64,000 nt of DNA from Acidovorax sp. sic0104. GTDB taxonomy: Bacteria; Pseudomonadota; Gammaproteobacteria; Burkholderiales; Burkholderiaceae_C. Shown here in pieces: positions 11,164-24,767 of this stretch. Position 1 is the stretch's first letter, and the number at the start of each line of letters is the position of its first letter. The notes under the pieces are model-generated. The model was not told the origin of the DNA and made no database searches. It saw nothing but the letters and a program-made list of their open reading frames with translations. The position numbers were made by a program, and so were the translations under genes. The DNA lies in the NCBI RefSeq assembly GCF_019219095.1, contig NZ_JAHUWH010000018.1, forward strand, positions 1 through 64,000. Reading direction: 5' to 3'.

Positions 11164-12699
11164 CTAGCCCGCAGCCACCGCCAGGCCCAGGGCGGGCTGG
11201 TGATCCAGGCCGCCCATCACGCGGCTGTTGCTGAAGCGCTGCTCCACCTGCCTGAGGAAATGGGTGAGCAGCAAGCGGTACAGGCCATCGCCCAAGGCTG
11301 CGTCCTCCACCCCCACATCGAGGTTCGGGTTGTCATTGATCTCGATCACGTACACCCCGGACGCCGTGGCCTTCAGGTCCACGCCATAGAAACCATGGCC
11401 CACCAGGCGGGCAGAGCTGACTGCCGCCGCCAACACCTGCGGGGGCACCTGGTCCAGCGGCACGGCCTGCACCCGGCCTTCGGTGTACTTGCCGTTGGCC
11501 GTGTGTTGCAGGATCTGCCAGTGGCCGTCGCACATGAAGTACTTCGCTGCAAAGATGGCCTGGCCTGCCAGCACGCCGATGCGCCAGTCGAAGTCGGTGT
11601 ACATGAACTCCTGCACGAGGATGATTTCCGACTCCTTGAGCATCTCCCGGGCGATGCCATGCAGCTGTTCAAAGTTCTCCGCCTTTTTCACACTGCGGCT
11701 GAACGCGCCGTCCGGCACCTTCACCACCACCGGGTAGGCCAGCCGGTGCTGCATGTCGGCCAGCGTGCGGCGGCTGACCATGTGCGTGAGCGGGGTGGCA
11801 ATGGCATGCTCGCGAAGCAGCTCCGCCAGAAAAGCCTTGTTGGTGCAGCGCAGGATGGACGCGGGATCGTCGATGACCGGCATGCCCTCCGCCATGGCTT
11901 TGCGCGCGAACTGGAAGGTGTGGTGGGTCACGGCCGTGGTCTCGCGGATGAAGAGTGCATCAAACTGGGTCAGCCGCGCCAAGTCCTTTTTTTCGATCAG
12001 CTCCACGGCAATGCCCATCTCCTGCCCCACATCGACCAGCTTGCGCAGGGTCTTGAGGTTGGACGGCGGCAAACGATCGTGCGGGTCGTGCAGCACCGCC
12101 AGGTCCATGCGCGGCTGGGGCATCGCGATCATGGGGCGCCAGCTACGCCGTGTGTACTGGAGCAGGGCTTGCACAAAGACCTCGTCGCGCGCGGCATCGA
12201 CATCGCGCAGGTCCAGCGCCTGCAGGCCACCGATCTGCCAATGGGCCGAGTGCTCCTGCCTCTCCAGCGTGACCTCCATCAGCGGGCAACGGAACAGCTC
12301 GAAGCTTTTGCGAGCCAGCGCGGCCAGTGCCGGGTCGTCCATGATCCCGAAGAAGACATGCAGCGTCAGTGTGTTCACCGAGCGCGGTATCTCCTTGAGA
12401 GGGCCAATCAGCCGGTTCAGCTGCGCCAGCGCCGACGGCTCGATGCGTTTGCGCTGCAGGCTCAGGATGGTGTCCACACTCGGCGTTACGCGGTCACCAC
12501 GCGCCTCGGCCAGCAGCGAGCAGTAGTAGCCCATGCTGAGGTAGCCGTAGCTCCTGCACAGGTTGGTGACCTTGCGCACGCGCCCACGGTGCAGCGGCTG
12601 TTCTGCAACGAATTGCTCTGCCGTGATGACCTTGATGTCGGGCTGGCTCCATCGAAAGTCGGCCAGCTTCTCCACCACGATGACATGTTCTGAGGACAA
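11164..12699 (-). CDS. RLAN-domain RimK-type ATP-grasp ligase
   Basis: The product is 511 aa. Residues 1 to about 165 match the RLAN domain (RimK-like ATP-grasp N-terminal) with KVTNLCRSYGYLSMGYYCS (43-61). The ATP-grasp fold covers about 285-490, with candidate ATP-binding Lys288 and Lys327, QEF near 363-365 and the Mg-binding EINDNPN (Glu453, Asn455, Asn457). RimK-type enzymes form amide bonds between an acyl phosphate and an amino group on peptides or small metabolites. The TTG start at 12699 follows GGAAAG and lies 1 bp past the upstream stop. The gene is last in a five-gene overlapping operon whose GNAT/C39 partner recurs with RLAN proteins. The substrate is unknown. Confidence 0.85.
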   Translation of the reverse strand: MSSEHVIVVEKLADFRWSQPDIKVITAEQFVAEQPLHRGRVRKVTNLCRSYGYLSMGYYCSLLAEARGDRVTPSVDTILSLQRKRIEPSALAQLNRLIGPLKEIPRSVNTLTLHVFFGIMDDPALAALARKSFELFRCPLMEVTLERQEHSAHWQIGGLQALDLRDVDAARDEVFVQALLQYTRRSWRPMIAMPQPRMDLAVLHDPHDRLPPSNLKTLRKLVDVGQEMGIAVELIEKKDLARLTQFDALFIRETTAVTHHTFQFARKAMAEGMPVIDDPASILRCTNKAFLAELLREHAIATPLTHMVSRRTLADMQHRLAYPVVVKVPDGAFSRSVKKAENFEQLHGIAREMLKESEIILVQEFMYTDFDWRIGVLAGQAIFAAKYFMCDGHWQILQHTANGKYTEGRVQAVPLDQVPPQVLAAAVSSARLVGHGFYGVDLKATASGVYVIEINDNPNLDVGVEDAALGDGLYRLLLTHFLRQVEQRFSNSRVMGGLDHQPALGLAVAAG

Positions 12700-12700
12700 T

Positions 12701-13819
12701 TTATTTCTTTCCAGAAAGGATGACGGCCGCAGTGCGCCCACGGCGCCCATACCTTGCGACTTTCTTGAATTCGCTCCAGCTGATGGACACACCGCCGTCC
12801 GGATCACCGGAACGTGCCATGGGGTCCAGCAGGCGAAACACCGCACCGTCGAAGCCTGTGATGACCACCCAGTGCGGCGTCTTTTCCCGGTGCAGGCGCC
12901 ACAAGCTGATGGGCACAATGGGCAGGCGCCCCGCCCGCAACTGCTCGATCACGCTGTCGGGCGACACCGGCCGCGCATGGATAGGCACCTGGCGCGCCTC
13001 CAGCGCCGCCCTGAAGTCGTTCTCCACCAACTGGATCACGTCCTTCTTGCGGGGGTCGCGCACGCTGTCCATGAACAGCGAGGCACCGGCAGCCGCATAC
13101 ACCGACACCTCAAAGCCGTGGGCCAGCGCGGCATGCGCCAACCCAAAAGGCCCACACCCGCCATGGCCTGCGGCCATGAACACCGTGGTGGCCTCGCGCC
13201 ACAGGCGGATCTCGGCCGCCTGGTTCACCGGCATGGCCGGGTCCATGGCGGACATCGCCATCAGCAGCGCACAGGGGCCGCAGGTGAAGTCCAGCGTCTG
13301 CGCATAGTGGCGCACCTGGAGCGACGCCGCTGCCTGGGCCAATGCGCCATCGAACAGGTCCTTCTGAAAGCACAGGGCCTGTTCGCCATCCTCGTAGTAA
13401 GCGGTTTTGCAACCGGTGTGCACAAAGCCGTGGCGCGCAAACAGACGGTGCGCCGACAGGTTGCGAGCCCTGCTCTCCAGCCGCAGCACCGCGCAGCCCG
13501 CATCACGCGCACCCTGGATTGCCGCCGCCAGCAGCCGGCTGGCCACGCCCGCGCGCCGCACGGACGGTGCCACTGCAATGGAGTACAGGCGTGCCACGGA
13601 CGATCCTTCGCGGCGCAATACCACGCAGGCTCCACCCAATGTCTGCCCCGATCGGACCACCAGCACGCGGGCCGAGGGGCTCAACAACAGATGCCCCCAG
13701 CTCCTGCGCGAAATCCTGTCGCTGGAGAACGCGGCGTTTTCCAGCTGTTCCAATGCCGGCAAATCCGCAGGGCACGCCGTTGAGACGCCCCGCACATCGG
13801 TCGATGGTTGACGCTTCAC
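12701..13819 (-). CDS. GNAT acetyltransferase fused to C39-like papain-fold peptidase
   Basis: The product is 372 aa with two domains. Residues 15-155 are a GNAT N-acetyltransferase with the acetyl-CoA loop VAPSVRRAGVASRLL (83-97). Residues 165-370 are a C39/papain-like domain with Cys180 in FTCGPCALLMA, His316 in TPHWVVITG and Asp332 in LLDPM as a plausible triad. The GTG start overlaps the stop of the preceding membrane peptide (GTGA), with GAGGA six bases upstream. It is translationally coupled at both sides and paired with an RLAN ATP-grasp ligase. The combination suggests acetylation, ligation and trimming of one peptide or amino-acid conjugate, although the reaction is unproven. Confidence 0.85.
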   Translation of the reverse strand: MKRQPSTDVRGVSTACPADLPALEQLENAAFSSDRISRRSWGHLLLSPSARVLVVRSGQTLGGACVVLRREGSSVARLYSIAVAPSVRRAGVASRLLAAAIQGARDAGCAVLRLESRARNLSAHRLFARHGFVHTGCKTAYYEDGEQALCFQKDLFDGALAQAAASLQVRHYAQTLDFTCGPCALLMAMSAMDPAMPVNQAAEIRLWREATTVFMAAGHGGCGPFGLAHAALAHGFEVSVYAAAGASLFMDSVRDPRKKDVIQLVENDFRAALEARQVPIHARPVSPDSVIEQLRAGRLPIVPISLWRLHREKTPHWVVITGFDGAVFRLLDPMARSGDPDGGVSISWSEFKKVARYGRRGRTAAVILSGKK

Positions 13820-13938
13820 GGGCAGTCCTCACGGGGCCGCTGCGCCTTGCGGTCAGACAGCTTCAATGCCACCCACCCCACCCCGATCGGAACCACGAGC
13901 ACCAGCACGGCCATCAGCAATGCGATCCAATCAGCCAT
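13816..13938 (-). CDS. 40-aa single-pass membrane peptide coupled to the GNAT/C39 gene
   Basis: This small frame starts MADWIALLMAVLVLVVPIG, a hydrophobic segment of about 24 residues, and ends in a charged tail (KLSDRKAQRPREDCP). Its stop overlaps the GTG of the GNAT/C39 gene by 4 bp, and its ATG overlaps the stop of the frame upstream by 8 bp. GGAG lies about ten bases before the ATG. The chained overlaps and membrane-peptide composition support a real gene. It may anchor the soluble enzymes at the membrane, or be their substrate or regulator; neither is shown. Confidence 0.65.
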   Translation of the reverse strand: MADWIALLMAVLVLVVPIGVGWVALKLSDRKAQRPREDCP

Positions 13939-14035
13939 GGCGCACCAGCTCCGGGCCCATGCCACGCAGGGCGCTGCGCACAAAGCCAGCCTCAATGGTT
14001 TGGCACCTTTGCGCGCTGCAATCGTTCAATGACAT
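13931..14035 (-). CDS. 34-aa small ORF in the ATP-grasp operon
   Basis: The frame starts MSLNDCSAQRCQTIEAGFV and ends LVRHG. It overlaps the 112-aa frame by 10 bp and the 40-aa membrane frame by 8 bp. A GGGGG stretch lies about seven bases upstream. It has two cysteines near the N-terminus and no membrane segment. Its frame stays open upstream through the 112-aa gene, so openness alone is weak evidence. It is supported mainly by the unbroken chain of coupled starts and stops. Its short size makes it a candidate substrate peptide for the ligase, which is inference. Confidence 0.42.
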   Translation of the reverse strand: MSLNDCSAQRCQTIEAGFVRSALRGMGPELVRHG

Positions 14036-14364
14036 GAAAGCGCCCCCGCGCAAGAACCGCTGGCCGCGCAGCCAATCTCGAGCTGCGGCAGGCCAGAGGC
14101 CAGGCAACGCTTGGCACTCTCCAGGTCGCGCCTCAGGATGTACAAGGTGCCCTTGGCCGTGTGGCGGGGCACGTCGAACGCCAGGCTGTATCCGCGCAGC
14201 TGTCGCCCCAGCACGGCCTGCAGCCTTGCACGCAGGCTTTGCCCATCGGCAAACGGCGTGGTGAACGCAACGAGCACCAACGCGGTGGGCTCGCCATCGC
14301 TCTCGCCCAGAGGCAACAGGGATATCCGGTGCAAGCCCATACTGGGACAACTCTTCATGAGCAT
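14026..14364 (-). CDS. Hypothetical protein, 112 aa, Cys-containing C-terminus
   Basis: This is the first gene of the ATP-grasp operon. Possible starts are ATG at 14364, 14358 or 14340; none has a strong ribosome-binding site, and 14340 gives MGLHRISLLPLGESDGEP. The middle (GQSLRARLQAVLGRQLRGYSLAFDVP) looks like a mixed alpha/beta fold, and the end is Cys-rich (LEIGCAASGSCAGALSCH). The family is not recognised. GC-rich third positions favour coding. It begins 76 bp after a KdpE-like tandem repeat, which may control the whole operon. Confidence 0.5.
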   Translation of the reverse strand: MLMKSCPSMGLHRISLLPLGESDGEPTALVLVAFTTPFADGQSLRARLQAVLGRQLRGYSLAFDVPRHTAKGTLYILRRDLESAKRCLASGLPQLEIGCAASGSCAGALSCH

Positions 14365-14404: not shown

Positions 14405-14439
14405 CGGTGTTGAACATGCTTTCAGTCTAGGAAATCCGG

Positions 14440-14460
14440 CGTAAATCGTTCGTAAAAAAT
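14440..14460 (-). promoter_or_regulatory. Putative KdpE box upstream of the ATP-grasp operon
   Basis: The forward strand reads CGTAAATCGTTCGTAAAAA; on the transcribed strand it is two TTTACG half-sites with an 11-bp period. The same arrangement precedes the kdp operon. It ends 76 bp upstream of the first ATG, against 79 bp for kdp. A TAGACT hexamer downstream is a possible -10. The regulator assignment is inferred from the match and from adjacency to kdpE. Confidence 0.55.
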
Positions 14461-14524: not shown

Positions 14525-14542
14525 AGGGCTGGCGCCAGCCCT
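14525..14542. terminator. Palindrome at the kdpE stop codon
   Basis: AGGGCTGGCGCCAGCCCT is a perfect 18-bp palindrome that overlaps the kdpE stop. It has no loop and no U-run, so it may only pause or protect the transcript end, leaving read-through into the next operon possible. Confidence 0.35.
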
Positions 14543-15245
14543 ACACCGCCAGCCGGTATCCCACCCCCGACTCGGTGAGCAGATGGCGGGGCTGCGCGGG
14601 GTCGGCCTCCAGCTTTTGGCGCAGGTGCCCCATGTAGATGCGCAGGTAGTGGCTCTGGTCCGACCGCATGGGCCCCCACACCTCGCGCAGCAGCTGCTTT
14701 TGGGTGATGACCCGCCCCGCATTGGCCACCAGCACCATGAGCATGCGGTACTCGGTGGGGGTCAGGTGCACCTCCACACCCGCCTTGCGCACCAGGCGCG
14801 CACTGCGGTCCACCTCGACATCGCCGAAATGGAACAGGGGCTCCGCCGCCTCCTGCACCAGCCCGTTGCCGGTGGCGGCGCGGGGCCTGCGCAGGTTGGC
14901 CCGCACCCGCGCCAGCAACTCGCCGGTGCCAAAGGGTTTGGTGAGGTAGTCGTCAGCACCCGCGTCGAGTGCCGCGATCTTGTCGGTCTCATCGGTGCGT
15001 GCGGACAGCACGATGATGGGCACGGCGGACCAGCCCCGCACATCGCGGATGAGCTCCACCCCATCGCCATCGGGCAGCCCCAGGTCCAGCACCAGCAGGT
15101 CGGGGTGGCGGGTGCCTGCGGCAGACAGGCCCTCGCGCAGGGTTCCCGCCTCGTGCACCTGCCAGCCCTCGGCCTCCAGCGCGCTGCGCACAAAGCGCCG
15201 GATCTGCGGCTCATCCTCGATCACCAAAACGGTACGTATCTGCAT
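14541..15245 (-). CDS. kdpE: Potassium-responsive response regulator
   Basis: The product is 234 aa, OmpR/PhoB class. The receiver domain has the acidic pair in VIEDEP, phospho-acceptor Asp54 in LLVLDLGLPDGDG, and Lys in TKPFG. The winged-helix DNA-binding domain covers about 130-234 (HLTPTEYRMLMVLV, VWGPMRSDQSHYLRIYMGHLRQKLE). When phosphorylated by KdpD it activates kdpFABC under K+ limitation or osmotic upshift. It starts 7 bp after the kdpD stop. Tandem repeats suited to this class occur upstream of the kdp operon and again just downstream of kdpE. Confidence 0.95.
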   Translation of the reverse strand: MQIRTVLVIEDEPQIRRFVRSALEAEGWQVHEAGTLREGLSAAGTRHPDLLVLDLGLPDGDGVELIRDVRGWSAVPIIVLSARTDETDKIAALDAGADDYLTKPFGTGELLARVRANLRRPRAATGNGLVQEAAEPLFHFGDVEVDRSARLVRKAGVEVHLTPTEYRMLMVLVANAGRVITQKQLLREVWGPMRSDQSHYLRIYMGHLRQKLEADPAQPRHLLTESGVGYRLAV

Positions 15246-15252
15246 TGTTTTC

Positions 15253-18024
15253 TCAAGGGGCAGAAACGCCCCGCTCCATCTCGCTCAAACCGGGGTCGGG
15301 CGGCGGCTCGCGCCGCGCCAGGGTCACCGTGAATTCCGCCCCGCCCCCTTCCGCACTGGCGGCAGAGATCGCACCGCCATGCGCTTGCACGACGGCCTTG
15401 CAGATCGCCAGCCCCAGGCCCACGCCCGGGGTGGCGGATTCCGCCTGGCCCCGGGTGAATTTTTCAAACAGGGTGTGCTCTTTGCCACGCACCGAGGCGG
15501 GCAGGCCCGGGCCATGGTCCCGCACCTTCAGCACCAGCATGTTGTCGGTGGTGGATGCTTTCACCACCACCGGTCCCGCGCCGTATTTGGCCGCATTCTC
15601 CAGAAGGTTGACCAGCACGCGCTCAATGAGCACGGGGTCGAACTCCACCAGCGGCAGGTCGGCGGGCACCTCGGTGCGCACAGGCATGTCGCCCAGTGCT
15701 GGTCGAGCGGCCCGGATGGCGGAGCCAACCACCTCCTCCACGGACTGCCAGTCCCGCCGCAGATGAACGCTCTGCCCCGACACATCGCTCTCCAGGCGCG
15801 CCATGTCCAGCAGGTTGCTGACCAGCGCATTGAGCTGGTGCGCCTGGCGCACGATGGCCTTGGCCACGGTGTTTGTCTCTTGCGGCGGCGCGACCTGCAA
15901 CGATTCGGCGAGCGTGATCAGGGCCGTGAGGGGGGTGCGCACATCGTGCGATACCGCGCCCAGCAGGGCATTGCGCAGGCGTTCAGACTCCATGTCCACC
16001 ACGGCCTGCTGCGCAATGTCCACGTAGTGCACACGCTCCAGGGCAATGGCGATCTGCCGGGCGAGGGTGTCGAGCTGCTGCGCCTGTTCCGGGATCAGCA
16101 GCCAGCGGGGCTGTGCAGGCTCCAGCGCCAGCACACCACGCACGCGCATGGGGGCCTTCAGGGGCTCATAGCGCCAGGCCTGCGCGGCCAGGGTGTTGGT
16201 GGCCAGGCCCGCGCTCTGCCCCTGGCGCAGCGTCCAGTCCGCCACGCTTTTGTCGAAGCCCGGCGGCACATCGTCGGGGTACTGAAGACGGTCCGACGCG
16301 TCCAGCGCCACCACCACGGCGCGGCCCCCAAAGTGCCCCTGCACGGCCGCCGCGCCGATCTCGATGACCTGGCTGGTCTCCAGCGCCGCTGACAGCTCGC
16401 GCGTCAGCTCAAACAGGGACTGGGCCCGCCGCTCCCGGCTGATCGACACCCCGGCGGCAAACCGCAACCCGGCCGTGAGCTGCCCCACCAGCAGCCCCAC
16501 GCCCAGCATCACCGCAAAAGTGACGACGTACTGCACATCGCTCACCGCGAACGACAGGCGCGGCGAGACGAAGAAGAAGTCGAACGCCAGCACATTCAGC
16601 AAGGCCGCCATCGCTGCGGGCACGCGCCCAAAACGCATGGCCACCGCGACAACCCCCACCAGGTAGAGCATCACGATGTTGGTGAGCTCCAGCACACCAT
16701 GCAGCGGTGTCGCCAGCACCGTGACGGCAACGCTGGCGCCCAGTGCCCACAAAAACCCCTGCCAGCGATAGCGCCCTGCGCCGGGCTCGCCCACATCCCC
16801 GTCATCGTCCAGGCTCATGTTGCGGTCCCACAGCGCCCGAGGCAGGCGCCGCGAGCTACCCGCATGCGCTGCCTCGACGATGTCGAGCGAAGGCGCCCGT
16901 TCGGCCAACTCGCGCGCAACACCCTTGGAAGCGAGAAGTTTGCGCCAGCCCGCCCGCGCGGCGGGGCGCCCCAGCACCAGGGTGGCGCAGTTCAGATGCA
17001 GCGCCTGGGCCGCCAGGGCCGGCGCCACGCGGTCGCCCGTGAGCACGGCCGTTTCGGCACCCAGCTCCTGCGCCAGTTGCAGCACGGCCAGAATTCTGTC
17101 GCGCTGGGCTGCGCCCAGGCGCTGCAGCCTTGGCGTCTCCACATAGGCGGCATGCCACTTCACATTGAGCTGCCCCGCCAGGCGGGCAGCTGTGCGCACC
17201 GTCTGTGCCGCGTCTTCGTGGGGCCCGACACAGGCCAGGATGCTGCCCGAGGTGTTCCAGGCACTGGCCACGCGGCTGCCGGAAGCACCCGACTGCTCCA
17301 CCCGCCAGCCCAGCACATCGTCTTCCACGTGCTCCGCCGTGCGCCGCAGCGCAATCTCCCGCAGGGCGATCAGGTTCCCCTTGCGGAAAAAGCTCTGCGC
17401 CGCACGCTCGGCCTGCTGGCGCACGTAGACCTTGCCAGCGTCCAGGCGGGCGATCAGCTCGTCGGGCGTGGCATCGACCAGCACCACTTCGTCGGCGTTG
17501 TCCAGAACGGTGTCGGGCACCGTTTCGTGCACGCGCACGCCGGTGATGGCCCCCACCGTGCCGTTCAGGCTCTCCAGATGCTGAACATTGAGTGCGGTCC
17601 ACACGTCGATGCCAGCGGCCAGCAGCTCCTGCACATCCTGCCAGCGCTTGGCGTGGCGGGAACCCTGCACGTTGGAGTGCGCAAGTTCATCCACCAGCAA
17701 GATGGCAGGCTTTCGGGCCAGGGCCGCATCCAGATCGAACTCGGAGAGCGTCCGGCCCCGGTACTCCACCTGCTTCAGGGGCAGCGACTCCAATCCCTCC
17801 AGCAGCGCAGCCGTTTCGGCCCGGCCATGGGTTTCCACCACGCCGATGAGGATGTCGCGCCCGGCGCGCCGCTCGCGCTGCGCGGCGCTGAGCATGGCCC
17901 AGGTCTTGCCGACCCCGGCATTGGCACCAAAGTAGATGCGCAGCTTGCCCCGCTGGGTCTGCTCTTCCTGGGCGCGCAGTTGCGCAATCAAGGCATCGGG
18001 GTCGGGGCGCTGGATGTCAGTCAT
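15253..18024 (-). CDS. kdpD: Sensor histidine kinase for K+/osmotic stress
   Basis: The product is 923 aa and inner-membrane. The order is an N-terminal KdpD domain with Walker A GANAGVGKT (33-41), a USP domain about 250-375, four closely spaced membrane segments about 420-525, a GAF-like region, then the kinase core with LLGAVSHDVRTPLTAL (phospho-acceptor His near 692), LENAAKYG and GLGLAICKAVVQAHGG. It senses intracellular K+ and ionic state and controls KdpE. The gene follows kdpC by 36 bp and precedes kdpE by 7 bp. Length and domains are complete. Confidence 0.95.
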   Translation of the reverse strand: MTDIQRPDPDALIAQLRAQEEQTQRGKLRIYFGANAGVGKTWAMLSAAQRERRAGRDILIGVVETHGRAETAALLEGLESLPLKQVEYRGRTLSEFDLDAALARKPAILLVDELAHSNVQGSRHAKRWQDVQELLAAGIDVWTALNVQHLESLNGTVGAITGVRVHETVPDTVLDNADEVVLVDATPDELIARLDAGKVYVRQQAERAAQSFFRKGNLIALREIALRRTAEHVEDDVLGWRVEQSGASGSRVASAWNTSGSILACVGPHEDAAQTVRTAARLAGQLNVKWHAAYVETPRLQRLGAAQRDRILAVLQLAQELGAETAVLTGDRVAPALAAQALHLNCATLVLGRPAARAGWRKLLASKGVARELAERAPSLDIVEAAHAGSSRRLPRALWDRNMSLDDDGDVGEPGAGRYRWQGFLWALGASVAVTVLATPLHGVLELTNIVMLYLVGVVAVAMRFGRVPAAMAALLNVLAFDFFFVSPRLSFAVSDVQYVVTFAVMLGVGLLVGQLTAGLRFAAGVSISRERRAQSLFELTRELSAALETSQVIEIGAAAVQGHFGGRAVVVALDASDRLQYPDDVPPGFDKSVADWTLRQGQSAGLATNTLAAQAWRYEPLKAPMRVRGVLALEPAQPRWLLIPEQAQQLDTLARQIAIALERVHYVDIAQQAVVDMESERLRNALLGAVSHDVRTPLTALITLAESLQVAPPQETNTVAKAIVRQAHQLNALVSNLLDMARLESDVSGQSVHLRRDWQSVEEVVGSAIRAARPALGDMPVRTEVPADLPLVEFDPVLIERVLVNLLENAAKYGAGPVVVKASTTDNMLVLKVRDHGPGLPASVRGKEHTLFEKFTRGQAESATPGVGLGLAICKAVVQAHGGAISAASAEGGGAEFTVTLARREPPPDPGLSEMERGVSAP

Positions 18025-18060: not shown

Positions 18061-18633
18061 TCAGCGCAAGCCGTCGAGCGCCAGGTTCAGCGCCAGCACG
18101 TTCACCCGGGGTTCGCCCAGCAGCCCCCACAAGGGTTGCTCCGCGTACTGGCCAATCACGGCATTCACGCTGGCCACCGGCAGGCTGCGGGCCCGCGCCA
18201 CGCGCCCTGCCTGGTACTGCGCCGCAGCCAGGCTGATGTGCGGGTCCAGGCCACTGGCCGAGGCCGTGACCAGATCCACCGGCACGGGGGCTGTGTTGCC
18301 GGGGTCGGCCGCGCGCAGGGCTTGTACGCGCGCTTTCACGGCATCGGCCAGCGCCGGATTGAGCGGCCCCTGGTTGGAACCGCTGGACGCTGCCGCGTTG
18401 TACGGCATGGGTGCCGTGGCCGATGGGCGGCCCCAGAAATGCCCGGGGTCTGAAAAGTTCTGGCCGATCAGCGACGAACCGACGGTCTGGCCATTGCGCT
18501 GTACCAGGCTGCCCGCTGCCTGCTGAGGGAACACCGCCTGGGCGGCGCCCGTCACCGCCAGCGGATAGAGCAGCCCGGTCAGCACGCTCAACAAGGCAAA
18601 CAGCACCAGCGCGGGGCGAAGAATGTTTTTCAT
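18061..18633 (-). CDS. kdpC: K+-transporting ATPase subunit C
   Basis: The product is 190 aa, a single-span inner-membrane protein that stabilises KdpA-KdpB coupling. A membrane segment sits at residues about 8-30, followed by a periplasmic domain with the family signatures [27 protein letters not shown] and [10 protein letters not shown]. It begins 10 bp after the kdpB stop and ends 36 bp before kdpD. Confidence 0.95.
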
Positions 18634-18643
18634 CAGAATCTCC

Positions 18644-20749
18644 TCAGATCAGCCCGACGGCCACAAGTATCCAGTCAATCAGCTTGATGCCCACAAACGG
18701 CACCAGCAGCCCGCCCAGCCCATAGATGGCCAGGTTGCGCCGCAGCAGCGCAGCCGCACCCACCGGGCGGTAGCGCACGCCGCGCAAGGCCAGGGGAATC
18801 AGGAACACGATCACCAGCGCATTGAAGATCACGGCCGACAGGATGGCGGACGACGGACTTGCCAGCCGCATGACGTTGAGCGCCGACAGCTGCGGGTAGG
18901 TGGACACGAAGATGGCCGGCACGATGGCGAAGTATTTCGCTACATCGTTCGCGATGGAGAAGGTGGTGAGCGAGCCGCGCGTCATCAAGAGCGCCTTGCC
19001 GGTCTCCACCACTTCCAGCAACTTGGTGGGGTTGGAGTCCAGGTCCACCATGTTGCCCGCCTCCTTGGCGGCCTGCGTGCCGCTGCCCATGGCCACAGCC
19101 ACGTCGGCCTGGGCCAGCGCAGGGGCGTCGTTGGTGCCGTCGCCGGTCATCGCCACCAGGCGGCCTTCGGCCTGGTACTTGCGGATCAGCTGCAGCTTGT
19201 CTTCGGGCGTGGCTTCGGCCAGGAAGTCGTCCACCCCCGCCTCGGCCGCGATGGCCGCTGCCGTGAGCTTGTTGTCGCCGGTGATCATCACGGTCTTGAT
19301 GCCCATGCGGCGCAGCTCGATGAAGCGCTCCTTGATGCCCGCCTTGACGATGTCCTTGAGCTCGACGATGCCCAGCACATGGCTGCCCTCGGCCACCGCC
19401 AGGGGCGTGCTGCCGCGCAGGGCCACCTGGTCGGCCGCGCTCATGACGTCCTGGGGCATCTTGCCGCCCAGGGCTTCCACATGCTTGGCCAGTGCCAGCA
19501 CGGCCCCCTTGCGCAGCATGGTGAGAGCAGACTCCGGCTGCCCCTCGCCTGCGGGCAGGTCCACGCCGCTCATGCGGGTCTGGGCTGTGAAGGGCACCAG
19601 CTTGACGCCCTGCGGGTTCTGGCCATCCACGCCAGCGCGGCGGGCCAGCTCCACAATGCTGCGGCCTTCCGGCGTTTCATCTGCCAGCGACGCCAGCAAG
19701 GCGGCGCGCGCAAGGCGCTCCTTGGACACACCCGGCGCAGGCAAAAATGCGCTGGCCTGGCGGTTGCCATGGGTGATGGTGCCGGTCTTGTCCAGCAACA
19801 GCACGTCCACGTCGCCTGCGGCCTCCACGGCCCGGCCCGAGGTGGCGATCACATTGGCCTGCATCATGCGGCTCATGCCAGCCACCCCCACGGCAGACAG
19901 CAGGCCGCCAATGGTGGTGGGGATCAGGCACACCAGCAGGGCCACCAGCGCGGTCAGCGAGACCACCGTGCCCGCGCCCGACGCCTGCACGCTGAAGATC
20001 GAAAACGGCAGCAGGGTCACGGTAACGACCAGGAACACGATGGTCAGCGCCACGAGCAAAATGGTCAGCGCGATCTCGTTGGGCGTCTTCTGGCGCTTGG
20101 CGGCTTCCACCATGCCGATCATCCGGTCGAGGAACGACTCGCCCGGGTTCACCGCCACGCGCACCACCAGCCAGTCGGACAACACCCGGGTGCCGCCGGT
20201 CACGGCAGAAAAATCGCCACCGGACTCACGCACCACGGAGGCCGATTCGCCGGTGATGGCGCTCTCGTCCACCGAGGCCACGCCCTCGATCACCTCGCCG
20301 TCCAGCGGGATCACATCGCCAGCCTCCACCAGCACCACATCGCCCCGGCGCAGGTTGGTGGCCAGCTCGGGCAAGAACGCAGAACCGTGCACGGGCTCCT
20401 TGAGCTTCTTGGCCCAGGTTTCCTTGCGCAACCCGCGCAGCGATGCGGCTTGCGCCTTGCTGCGCCCTTCTGCCAGCGCTTCGGCAAAATTGGCAAACAG
20501 CACGGTGAACCACAGCCAGACCGTGATGGCCAACACAAACGCTGGACGCATGCTCGCATCCTCAGGCGCATTGAGTGCATGCAGCCACAGCAGCGTGGTG
20601 AAGATGCTGCCGATATACACGATGAACATCACCGGGTTGCGCCACTGCACCAACGGACTGAGCTTGGCCAGCGCGCCCCAGAGCGCGGTCTTGATCAACG
20701 CTGCATCCAGCAGCGAAACGGAAGAAGTTTTTTTCTTGGTCATTGCCAT
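18644..20749 (-). CDS. kdpB: K+-transporting P-type ATPase catalytic subunit
   Basis: The product is 701 aa. It hydrolyses ATP to drive K+ uptake through KdpA. Asp320 in DKTGTIT is the phosphorylated residue, TGES (166-169) is the dephosphorylation loop, and [24 protein letters not shown] is split across the P domain hinge. Seven or so membrane segments are present, with the expected Ile-Pro-Thr-Thr-Ile-Gly in the fourth region. It lies 3 bp downstream of kdpA. All catalytic elements are intact. Confidence 0.97.
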
Positions 20750-20752
20750 ACC

Positions 20753-22558
20753 TCACTGAACCCGGAGCATCAGGTGCTCCACCATCGGACCCAGGGCCAG
20801 GGAGGGCACGTAATTGAGAAGACCCACCAGAAGCACGGTGCCGATCAGCAGCGTGACAAACAAGGGACCGTGTGTGGGCATGGTGCCCGCCGTGACTGGC
20901 AAGCGCTTCTTGGCCGCCAGCGAACCCGCAATGGCCAGCACCGGCACGATCACGCCGAAACGGCCCAGCCACATCGCGAGCCCCAACAACACGTTGTAGA
21001 ACGGCGTGTTGGCCGACAGGCCCGCAAAGGCGCTGCCGTTGTTGTTGGCGGCAGACGTCAGCGCATACAGAATTTCAGAGAACCCGTGCGCACCCGGGTT
21101 GGCGATGCCCGCCCTGCCCGCGTCCGTGGCCACGGCAATCGCCGTGCCCACCAGCACCAGAATGGGCGTGACCAGGATGGCCGCCGAGGTGAGCTTCATC
21201 TCACGCACCTCGATCTTCTTGCCCAGGTACTCCGGCGTGCGGCCAATCATGAGGCCCGCCATGAAGACGGCGAGGATGGCAAACACCAGCATGCCGTAGA
21301 GGCCCGTGCCAACGCCACCAAACACCACTTCGCCCAGTTGCATCAGCACCAGCGGCACCATGCCGCCCAGGGGCGTGAAGGAGTCGTGCATGGAGTTCAC
21401 GGCACCACACGAGGCGGCAGTGGTCACGGCAGCGAACAGTGCCGACGCATTGATGCCGAACCGTACCTCCTTGCCTTCCATGTTGCCGCCCGCTTGCAGG
21501 GCACTGGCGGTTTGCTCCACGCCCAGTCCCACCCATTGCGGATTGCCGACTTTCTCGGCGGAAACCACAGCGATCACGGCCACCACGAACATCACCGTCA
21601 TGGCCGCCAGGATCGCAAACCCCTGGCGCTGGTCGCCCACAACGCGGCCAAACGCAAAACACAGCGCGGCGGGAATCAGGAAAATCGCCAGCATCTGCAC
21701 GAAGTTGGTCAGGGCCGTCGGGTTCTCATAGGGATGGGCGGAGTTGGCATTGAAAAAGCCACCGCCGTTGGTGCCCAGCATCTTGATGGCTTCCTGCGAT
21801 GCCACCGGGCCCATGGCCAGGGTCTGGGTGTTGCTTGTCTTGGCTTCCATCACCGGCGCGCCATCGCTGCCCACCACCGGCTGGCCCGATGCGTCGAGCT
21901 TGGGCACTTCGTAGGCTGTAGGCTCCAGCGTCGCCACGTCCTTGTAGGCGTCAAAGTTCTGGATCACGCCCTGCCCGACCAGCACGATGGAAATCACAAA
22001 CGCGATGGGCATGAGCACCCAGGCCGTGATGCGCGTGACATCGGCCCAGAAGTTGCCCACAAAACCCTGGCCATCGGTGCTGCGTGCTGCAAAGCCGCGC
22101 GCCAGCGCAAACGCCACGGCGATGCCGGTGGCCGCCGAGAAGAAGTTCTGCACCGACAGGCCCAGCATCTGCGTGAGGTAGCTCATGGTGGACTCGCCCC
22201 CATAGCCCTGCCAGTTGGTGTTGGAGACAAAGCTGATGGCGGTGTTGAACGAAGAATCGCCCGACACCCCGGCCATGCCCTGCGGATTGAGCGGCAGCAG
22301 GTGCTGCAAACGCTGCAGGCCATACACCGCAAAAGCGCCGATGGCATTGAAAGCCAGCAGCGCCAGCGCGTAGCTGCGCCAGTGCATCATCTGATCCGGC
22401 GCAACCCCGGCAAGTTGGTACAAAGGTTTTTCGATGGCATGCATCCACCTTGGCAGGCGGCCATCACAGACTGCAGCCAGCCATTTGCCAAGCGGCCACG
22501 CCAGCACGCCCAGCACGATCAGGAAGAGCCCCAGCAGGCTCCAGGCAGAGGTATCCAT
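20753..22558 (-). CDS. kdpA: K+-transporting ATPase subunit A
   Basis: The product is 601 aa, a channel-like inner-membrane subunit with four selectivity-filter repeats derived from K+ channels. Visible filter-type segments include [46 protein letters not shown] and [15 protein letters not shown]+ is selected here and handed to KdpB. It is 1 bp past the kdpF stop and 3 bp before kdpB, a tight operon. Confidence 0.97.
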
Positions 22559-22559
22559 C

Positions 22560-22658
22560 TCAGAACTCCTCCGCGCAGATCAGCGCAAACACCAGGTAGG
22601 CCAGCAGCACCAGGGCCACGATGGCGCCAAAGCCGTAGAGCATTTCCATGCCGATCAT
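22560..22658 (-). CDS. kdpF: Small K+-ATPase stabilising subunit
   Basis: The product is 32 aa, essentially one membrane helix ([20 protein letters not shown]) followed by CAEEF. It is the expected size and position for KdpF, which stabilises the KdpABC complex in the membrane. Its ATG overlaps the stop of another tiny membrane ORF (ATGA), and it ends 1 bp before kdpA. Three Met codons near the start (1, 4 and 6) leave a small start ambiguity. Confidence 0.85.
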
Positions 22659-22759
22659 GAACGCTCCCCCTTGGCCGGACCGAACTTGCCCAGCAAAACC
22701 ACGGCTTCGGCCATGACCACCCACAACGCCGCCAGTGCGGCAATCCATAACACGTCCAT
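22655..22759 (-). CDS. 34-aa membrane peptide at the head of the kdp operon
   Basis: The frame starts MDVLWIAALAALWVVMAEAV and ends [11 protein letters not shown]: one hydrophobic helix with a basic tail. GCAGGAG lies seven bases before the ATG, and its stop overlaps the kdpF ATG as ATGA, so it is well placed to be translated and coupled to kdpF. E. coli kdp has no such gene. It may be a second stabilising peptide or a regulator of the pump. It is too small for routine gene calling. Confidence 0.7.
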   Translation of the reverse strand: MDVLWIAALAALWVVMAEAVVLLGKFGPAKGERS

Positions 22760-22805
22760 CGACAACTCCTGCATCAAAACGTATGTTTGATTCTCAGAAG
22801 GTGGC

Positions 22806-22857
22806 CGTAAAAAGTGTGCACAGGTTGTGGAGGGCGCCGTAAAAATGGCGTAAAAAT
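22806..22857 (-). promoter_or_regulatory. Putative KdpE box of the kdp operon
   Basis: The forward strand has CGTAAAAAT at 22838-22846 and 22849-22857 (11-bp period) plus a single CGTAAAAA at 22806-22813. On the transcribed strand these are TTTTTACG direct repeats, the tandem half-site layout used by OmpR-class regulators and resembling the T-rich kdp operator of E. coli. The pair lies 79-98 bp upstream of the first ATG of the operon. Confidence 0.65.
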
Positions 22858-23862: not shown

Positions 23863-24035
23863 CGCAGCACCCCTTGCAACACTGAAATGGAAGATACAGG
23901 CAATCTTGCCATTGCCACAGTGCCCCAGATCCACGGGCTTGCGCAACATTTACGGCGTGGGCTGCAATTTTTGCGAACTTTATACGCGGGCTTTTCTACG
24001 CTTGCGCTCTTGTCTTTTTCTCAACAATTGTTGCC

Positions 24036-24767
24036 ATGAATCCCGCCTCTCACAAAGTACTTGCCGTCGCCGTGCTGGCCACGCTTCCCATGCTGGCCAG
24101 CGCCCAGCTCACAGGCAACGTCAGCCTGACCACCAACTACAAGTTCCGCGGCCAGGACCAGGACGCCTCCAAGTCCAAGGCCGTCAAGCCTGCGCTGCAG
24201 GGCGGCTTTGACTACACGTTCGGCGAGACCGGCTGGTACGTGGGCAACTGGAACTCCAGCGTGGACTGGCTGGCCAACAACTCGCTCGAATCCGACCTGT
24301 ACGGCGGCTACAAGTTCAAGGCCGCCGGCGCCGACTTCGATGTGGGCGCACTGACCTACATCTACCCCGGCAACAGCAACGGCAACACCACCGAGCTGTA
24401 TGGCGCGGCCACCATGGGACCCTTCACCGCCAAGTACTCGCACACCATCTCCAAGGACTACTTCGGTTTCGCAGGCGCCAAGGCGGGCTCGGGCCTGAAG
24501 GGCACCAACACCGGCTACCTGAACCTGGCGTTCGCGCAGGAAGTGGCCCCCAGCATCACGCTGAAGGCATCGGTGGGCTTCACCCGCTTTGCCAGCGACA
24601 TCAAGGACACGGGCGTGCCCAACTACATGGACTACAGCGTGGGCGGCGCGTATGACTTCGGCAGCGGCCTGTCGCTCGGCGCTGCCGTGGTGGGCGCCAA
24701 CAAGAAGGCCTTCTTTGGCCACGTGAACAAGTCGCGCGTGATCGTCACGCTCACCAAGACCCTGTGA
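24036..24767 (+). CDS. TIGR02001-type outer-membrane beta-barrel protein
   Basis: The product is 243 aa. Residues 1-24 are a signal peptide ending in ASA. The mature protein opens LTGNVSLTTNYKFRGQDQD, the hallmark of the TIGR02001 family, whose function is unknown. Alternating beta strands (WYVGNWNSSVDW, YGGYKF, ALTYIYPG) and the C-terminal VIVTLTKTL fit an outer-membrane barrel. It diverges from the CorA gene. The substrate or role cannot be assigned. Confidence 0.82.
   Translation: MNPASHKVLAVAVLATLPMLASAQLTGNVSLTTNYKFRGQDQDASKSKAVKPALQGGFDYTFGETGWYVGNWNSSVDWLANNSLESDLYGGYKFKAAGADFDVGALTYIYPGNSNGNTTELYGAATMGPFTAKYSHTISKDYFGFAGAKAGSGLKGTNTGYLNLAFAQEVAPSITLKASVGFTRFASDIKDTGVPNYMDYSVGGAYDFGSGLSLGAAVVGANKKAFFGHVNKSRVIVTLTKTL

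Follow-up and report, generated by a model that had tools for sequence, protein, structure and literature searches.

A predicted KdpE-type promoter layout precedes the kdp operon, a RimK-like ligase operon and a porin gene in Acidovorax sp. sic0104

The stretch of DNA analysed here (the window) comprises 64,000 nucleotides of Acidovorax sp. sic0104 (contig NZ_JAHUWH010000018.1), whose genome assembly has a size of 5.82 Mb in 82 contigs. On the minus strand, a 34-aa ORF is followed in this order by kdpF, kdpA, kdpB, kdpC, kdpD and kdpE, and then by a small ORF (sORF), a 40-aa microprotein gene, a gene for a GNAT acetyltransferase fused to a C39-like peptidase domain and a gene for a RimK-like ligase; the genes from the sORF to the ligase are referred to below as the RimK operon. 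The coordinates of these and the other features are given in Table 1. The sORF has no match in Pfam or NCBIfam. Its structure model predicts a ferredoxin/ACT-like core with a pLDDT near 90, and a Foldseek search with this model returned no PDB match at E <= 0.001, only diverse ferredoxin-like folds. The ligase stays below the cut-off of NCBIfam TIGR00768 (68.2 bits versus 143.4), and the lists of 15 NCBIfam families obtained for each of the two proteins contain no model for NAGGN synthesis. Relatives of the sORF precede kdpD in Rhodoferax and Janthinobacterium MAGs, and small ORFs like the microproteins with one hydrophobic stretch (before GNAT-C39 and before kdpF) open the RimK operon in relatives.

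Table 1. Genes and promoter elements in the window
Feature	Position	Strand	Evidence or description
RimK-like ATP-grasp ligase, RLAN N-terminal domain	11164..12684 (start codon provisional)	-	PF14401 137.7 bits, PF08443 34.1 bits, both over cut-off
GNAT acetyltransferase fused to C39-like peptidase domain (DUF3335)	12701..13819	-	PF00583 55.5 bits, PF11814 214.8 bits, both over cut-off
40-aa microprotein, one hydrophobic stretch	13816..13938	-	4-base overlap with GNAT-C39 start
sORF, 112 aa, first gene of RimK operon	14026..14364	-	predicted beta-alpha-beta-beta-alpha-beta fold
RimK-operon -10-like box TAGACT (predicted), 10 bases past last half-site	14424..14429	-	promoter alignment
Reported pair, proximal half-sites, layout 32/43	TTTACG 14456-14451, TTTACG 14445-14440	-	exact pair search, promoter alignment
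RimK-operon distal pair, layout 0/11	TTGACA 14488-14483, TTGATG 14477-14472	-	promoter alignment
kdpE, response regulator	14541..15245	-	NF007820 343 bits, cut-off 325 (equivalog)
kdpD, sensor kinase	15253..18024	-	PF02702 320.9 bits; NF007793 986.9 bits, below cut-off 1123
kdpC	18061-18633	-	profile match
kdpB	18644-20749	-	named by likeness and order
kdpA	20753-22558	-	named by likeness and order
kdpF	22560-22658	-	
34-aa ORF, one hydrophobic stretch, before kdpF	22655..22759	-	
kdp promoter	22790..22854	-	TTTACG 22854-22849, TTTACG 22843-22838, TGTGCA 22822-22817 (weak), TTTACG 22811-22806, -10-like GAGAAT 22795-22790
Third site of kdp layout, degenerate	23938..24002	+	CTTGCG, TTTACG (23949), TTTGCG (23970), TATACG (23981), -10-like TACGCT (23997-24002)
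TorF-family putative porin gene (Gcw_chp), starts 33 bases past third site	24036..24767	+	PF09694 135.8 bits; TIGR02001 122 bits, cut-off 47.15

The RimK operon is also found next to kdp in relatives. Among the best 80 of the 198 loci with a RimK alignment, 24 have a RimK identity of 59% or more, and kdp genes flank 14 of these, eight of which are Acidovorax loci with one arrangement; some of the ten close loci without flanking kdp genes are short contigs. The flanks of the other 56 loci contain no kdp genes (0/56), bar a 25% match to another P-type ATPase and generic kinase and regulator matches (14/24 versus 0/56, Fisher p 1.3e-9, kinship ignored). Four arrangements occur: the operon lies downstream of kdpE, between kdpC and kdpD, convergent to kdp (L065) or divergent from it (L066, L068). 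Within the genus, KdpA is present in all 15 genomes with RimK versus 33 of 47 overall (p 0.0017, kinship ignored). Both Fisher values overstate independence, because the loci are related. In genomes G480 and G492 kdp is present, and 28 RimK codons remain directly after kdpE (L233:9906-9989 and L234:6089-6172), so the operon has been lost there. An order-wide search found RimK in 15 of 399 genomes, namely our own and 14 relatives at only 39-41% identity, and thus no additional close operons; a class-wide RLAN search gave matches in 63 of 274 genomes. In genome G500 (L235, L213), the operon, the kdp-adjacent porin gene and the kdp operator are all missing, which may reflect joint loss or be an assembly matter.

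The first-pass annotation of this DNA had pointed to two TTTACG half-sites, 11 bp apart, before the RimK operon and again before kdp. Both TTTACG-N5-TTTACG pairs are exact and lie on the minus strand (14440-14456 and 22838-22854), and the distances of 76 bp and 79 bp given for them agree with first start codons at 14364 (sORF) and 22759 (the 34-aa ORF before kdpF). With at most two mismatches allowed, the window holds six matches to the pair versus 0.47 expected, and none of 100 shuffles reached six. The complete genome of 5.82 Mb contains four exact pairs: those of the RimK operon and kdp, one before an OmpR-like regulator gene and one at the 3' end of gpmA. At one mismatch or fewer the pair is not in excess in this genome (7 versus 10 for the reversed pattern), and the signal is therefore carried by the exact pair only. 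Summed over spacings of 0-25 there is no excess either (9 versus 10), yet four of the nine occur at spacing 5.

In the 47 genomes of the genus, 40 exact pairs were found, versus 13 for the reversed control. They are located at kdp promoters (17), at RimK-operon promoters (8) and elsewhere (15, about background); the last group includes five pairs located at the gpmA 3' end and two that precede the gene of the OmpR-like regulator. Since 25 of the 40 fall at the kdp and RimK promoters and the remaining 15 are near background, the excess is explained by these two promoters, which is the concentration that the first-pass annotation had proposed to look for by a genome scan. The exact pairs at the gpmA 3' end recur in several genomes (L004:1501-1517; L284, L302, L303, L304) and are partly produced by the end of the coding sequence. 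Separately, a Nitrosovibrio locus (L314:16924-17082, plus strand) contains a 52-aa one-helix ORF that is transcribed away from kdp and has TTTACG-N5-TTTACG upstream; this ORF resembles the first RimK-operon ORF of L066, and there is no RimK in the stretch examined.

Several lines of evidence connect the pair with KdpE. By its sequence pattern, TTTACG-N5-TTTACG is the predicted operator of kdp in this family, and spacing 5 is the only one at which this holds. KdpA was found in 79 family genomes and 33 genus genomes, and 58 kdpA upstream regions were taken from loci drawn from these (30 per search). With the half-sites at spacing 5, the top match reached at least 10/12 in 34 of the 58, at least 11 in 27 and 12 in 21, and any of the 15 other spacings within 0-15 reached at least 10 in at most 8, at least 11 in at most 1, and 12 in none. 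The pair before the RimK operon has the make-up expected of a KdpE operator, TTTA-type half-sites of 6 bp each and a spacer of 5 bp, and the kdp promoters of this species and of related ones contain this element too. The resemblance to E. coli, given in the first-pass annotation as two TTTA-type half-sites 11 bp apart, holds as well: the available part of the E. coli report gives the KdpE half-sites as TTTATA and TTTACA with 5 bp between them (PMC3264566).

Alignment of the promoters uncovered a longer layout, with half-sites at positions 0, 11, 32 and 43, followed by ten bases and a -10-like hexamer. The kdp promoters have strong half-sites at 0, 11 and 43 (the last in 29/32) and a weak one at 32. 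The strong positions of 13 Acidovorax RimK-operon promoters are 32 and 43, with a TTGAC(A/G)/TTGA(T/C)G-like pair located exactly 32 bp further upstream (mean 11.46 of 12; next offset 7.46). The idea that the RimK-operon repeat matches that of kdp itself holds for the 0/11/32/43 layout, which is common to both, but the two pairs occupy different places in it: distal (0/11) for kdp and proximal (32/43) for the RimK operon. The RimK-operon promoter of a Janthinobacterium MAG (L061) has the kdp form.

We scored this layout with two matrices. The first (69 bp) was trained on 57 of the 58 kdp promoters. The hold-out matrix was trained on the kdp promoters of other genera (25/25), all from genomes in which no GNAT-C39 operon was found; selection was by this operon and not by RimK itself, and L164, L175 and L185 were excluded from training, as the operon or RimK is present in their genomes. 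Across the 127,864 positions scored in the window, the three highest values of the hold-out matrix belong to kdp (49.3), the RimK operon (26.9) and the porin gene (22.3), the next one being -6.3. Of the 30 held-out kdp promoters of the genus, 29 reach at least 38, and only L213 of G500 does not. For the related RimK operons we used 27 upstream regions; L052 (60 bp only), the near-duplicates L049, L068 and L238-L242, and L233 (RimK remnant only) had been dropped and the window, L252 and L039 added, and the set still includes close relatives. With the first matrix, 19 of the 27 outscore all 540 dinucleotide shuffles, and the same 19 score 4.9 or more with the hold-out matrix. The layout was found in none of 56 distant RimK upstream regions with the hold-out matrix (maximum -4.3). 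The comparison of relatives suggested at the outset thus bears out conservation before 19/27 related operons and 0/56 distant ones, with 8/27 related operons lacking the layout.

These eight exceptions (L062, L063, L066, L067, L251, L039, L069, L096) are not all alike. In L062 and L063 the RimK operon is located inside the kdp operon, between kdpC and kdpD; no more than a pair was seen in L066, L067, L251 and L039, and nothing in L069 and L096 (Labrys). The presence of the layout largely follows the kind of KdpE: it occurs in 18 of the 21 loci where the best KdpE of the genome shares about 64% identity or more with that of the window, and in one of the six with a KdpE at 51% or less (L056, L066, L067, L251, L069, L096), namely L056, with the weakest score. 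L039 is a counterexample: its genome, G148, encodes a 79% identical KdpE and carries the layout at its kdp promoter, yet not at the RimK gene. When 14 further kdp upstream regions were scored with the first matrix, seven reached 47 or more and seven were negative, all of the latter with KdpA at 38-48%; kdp promoters of the divergent class are therefore also without the layout.

It might be argued that the pair arose by chance and was retained merely because the operon adjoins kdp, given that the pair is short and that 15 of the 40 genus pairs are about background. However, the stretch examined is free of kdp genes in seven of the 19 layout-bearing RimK loci (L056, L059, L060, L243, L064, L070, L071), and in six of these, all but L056, kdp genes or kdpE lie on another contig; L056 has kdpDE of another class (KdpE 49%) about 26 kb away. 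The layout is moreover missing from the 56 distant RimK upstream regions, and we give a chance origin the least credit of the alternatives considered here.

The window also contains a third site. The first-pass annotation had noticed no other tandem pair, which turned out to be incorrect: a degenerate array of the same layout (23938-24002, plus strand) stands before the TorF-family porin gene, and this site is conserved in relatives. A search of 2.95 Mb of loci with the first matrix (both strands, overlaps included) gave 100 distinct sites at 10 or more, of which 57 belong to kdp, 20 to the RimK operon and 23 to others. Eleven of these 23 are, by sequence, versions of the porin promoter, and the porin gene lies beside the site in all seven loci checked (the window, L042, L233, L234, L237, L238, L240). 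Two more are located between RimK and the sORF homologue before kdpD (L063/L041, L061), and one between the porin gene and kdpE (L065). The remaining nine are unassigned and count against the KdpE reading. In L065, two more sites of the kdp layout (L065:7064 and L065:7874, scores 27.5 and 36.8) lie near an ORF fragment, which we take to resemble the start of a Kup-type K+ transporter.

The most serious competing explanation is that another regulator of the OmpR family, such as the OmpR-like protein encoded at L001:1585-2304, binds the RimK-operon repeat, and that the likeness to KdpE sites stems from 11-bp direct repeats used throughout the family. The gene for this protein, present in 42 of the 47 genomes, has TTTACC/G-N5-TTTACG upstream at 11/12 or better in 30 of 30 loci examined, its pair also occurs in some genomes without KdpA, and two of the 40 exact genus pairs stand before it. 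Many unrelated promoters with the same pair would speak against KdpE; what was found is a weak form of this, namely this one regulator gene, with a like pair in 30/30 loci and without the kdp layout. On the other hand, these loci score at most -8.9 with the first kdp matrix versus 32.1 for the RimK-operon promoter, so that, judged with the kdp matrix, one promoter model does not cover both. The distribution differs too, with the OmpR-like regulator gene in 42 of 47 genomes versus the RimK operon in 15, all of them with KdpA. OmpR-family sites of like sequence do exist, and it is on layout that we set this regulator aside as improbable. The repeat before its own gene (L001:1501-1517) is perhaps autoregulatory. 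A CpxR-type or other envelope-stress regulator could be considered as well, as the CpxR box is close to GTAAA-N6-GTAAA, the opposite-strand reading of the pair. This likeness to a consensus is all that speaks for it, whereas the same repeat is the conserved element of kdp promoters and the full layout is common to kdp; we regard such a regulator as highly improbable, if slightly less so than chance.

In summary of the promoter data, the same layout precedes kdpFABC (the operon of the emergency K+ pump), the sORF-microprotein-GNAT/C39-RimK operon and the TorF-family porin gene, and it recurs in relatives, several of them without nearby kdp. The KdpE-type reading of the RimK-operon repeat, put forward in the first-pass annotation, appears well founded at the level of sequence, genome scan and conservation both agreeing with it. 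We therefore propose, with a probability of about 0.83, that the reported pair makes up the proximal half of an operator-promoter of the KdpE type, and that at low K+ KdpE would activate kdp, the RimK operon and the porin gene as a small regulon. KdpDE is a textbook two-component system: at low K+, KdpD would phosphorylate KdpE, and phosphorylated KdpE would bind the half-sites and activate transcription, with the last half-site probably replacing the -35 box, as in the pho box. Activation through the common layout would place the operon and the porin gene in the KdpE regulon.

What the operon would do under these circumstances can be approached from its protein families. It is conceivable, though doubtful, that a peptide or protein end receives an amino acid, probably glutamate, from the RimK-like ligase, with acetylation by the GNAT domain and trimming by the C39-like domain, and that in this way the operon produces or alters a peptide required under K+ shortage. 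Just as tentatively, K+ starvation might induce, via KdpDE, a peptide-ligase module together with the TorF porin, the product being either an N-acetylated glutamate-rich peptide that replaces part of the K+-glutamate pool or a modified small membrane protein with a tuning effect on the Kdp pump. In the open-licence literature we noticed no report that links KdpE or kdp to RimK or GNAT-C39, and found nothing on RimK together with GNAT and C39 or on the TorF porin with potassium. According to the available part of one study, poly-alpha-glutamate is a product of RimK, which also glutamylates a ribosomal protein, and hypoosmotic tolerance involves the rlo operon, which encodes an ATP-grasp protein (PMC12239564). 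KdpDE has been tied to virulence in several pathogens, as far as the accessible text of PMC3610689 goes. For E. coli KdpE, the accessible part of another study describes kdpFABC as the sole target and adds three further direct targets (PMC7657598). If our proposal is correct, Betaproteobacteria would have a conserved KdpE regulon of at least three promoters, versus the one main target locus described for E. coli in that part (PMC7657598). It would also connect K+ starvation with the RLAN-RimK/GNAT-C39 enzymes, which are uncharacterised, and with a porin family of unknown substrate, and low K+ and a kdpE mutant would be a named condition and background for seeking the product of the enzymes.

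How does the proposed system compare with known ones? The pho box of PhoB promoters has 11-bp direct repeats that end 10 bp before the -10 box and replace the -35 box, and the KdpE-type layout resembles it in the repeats, the 10 bp to the -10-like box and the proposed replacement of the -35 box; the half-site sequence and the regulator differ. The synthesis of the osmolyte NAGGN likewise involves an acetyltransferase and an ATP-grasp ligase acting on a small peptide, together with a peptidase and a tie to osmotic stress, but the protein families are other ones. The Pseudomonas RimK/RimB and rlo (RloA-RloB-RloC) systems share a RimK-type ATP-grasp ligase encoded with a peptidase; they differ in that this is an aspartic peptidase and rlo has an inactive transglutaminase, and no GNAT domain or kdp link was noticed in the available part of the source (PMC12239564). 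Finally, the E. coli kdpFABC operator, as given in the available part of its description, has the same 6-bp TTTA-type half-sites, 5-bp gap and orientation relative to the operon (PMC3264566), whereas the Acidovorax version has TTTACG half-sites and a four-position layout, and also stands before the RimK/GNAT-C39 operon and the porin gene.
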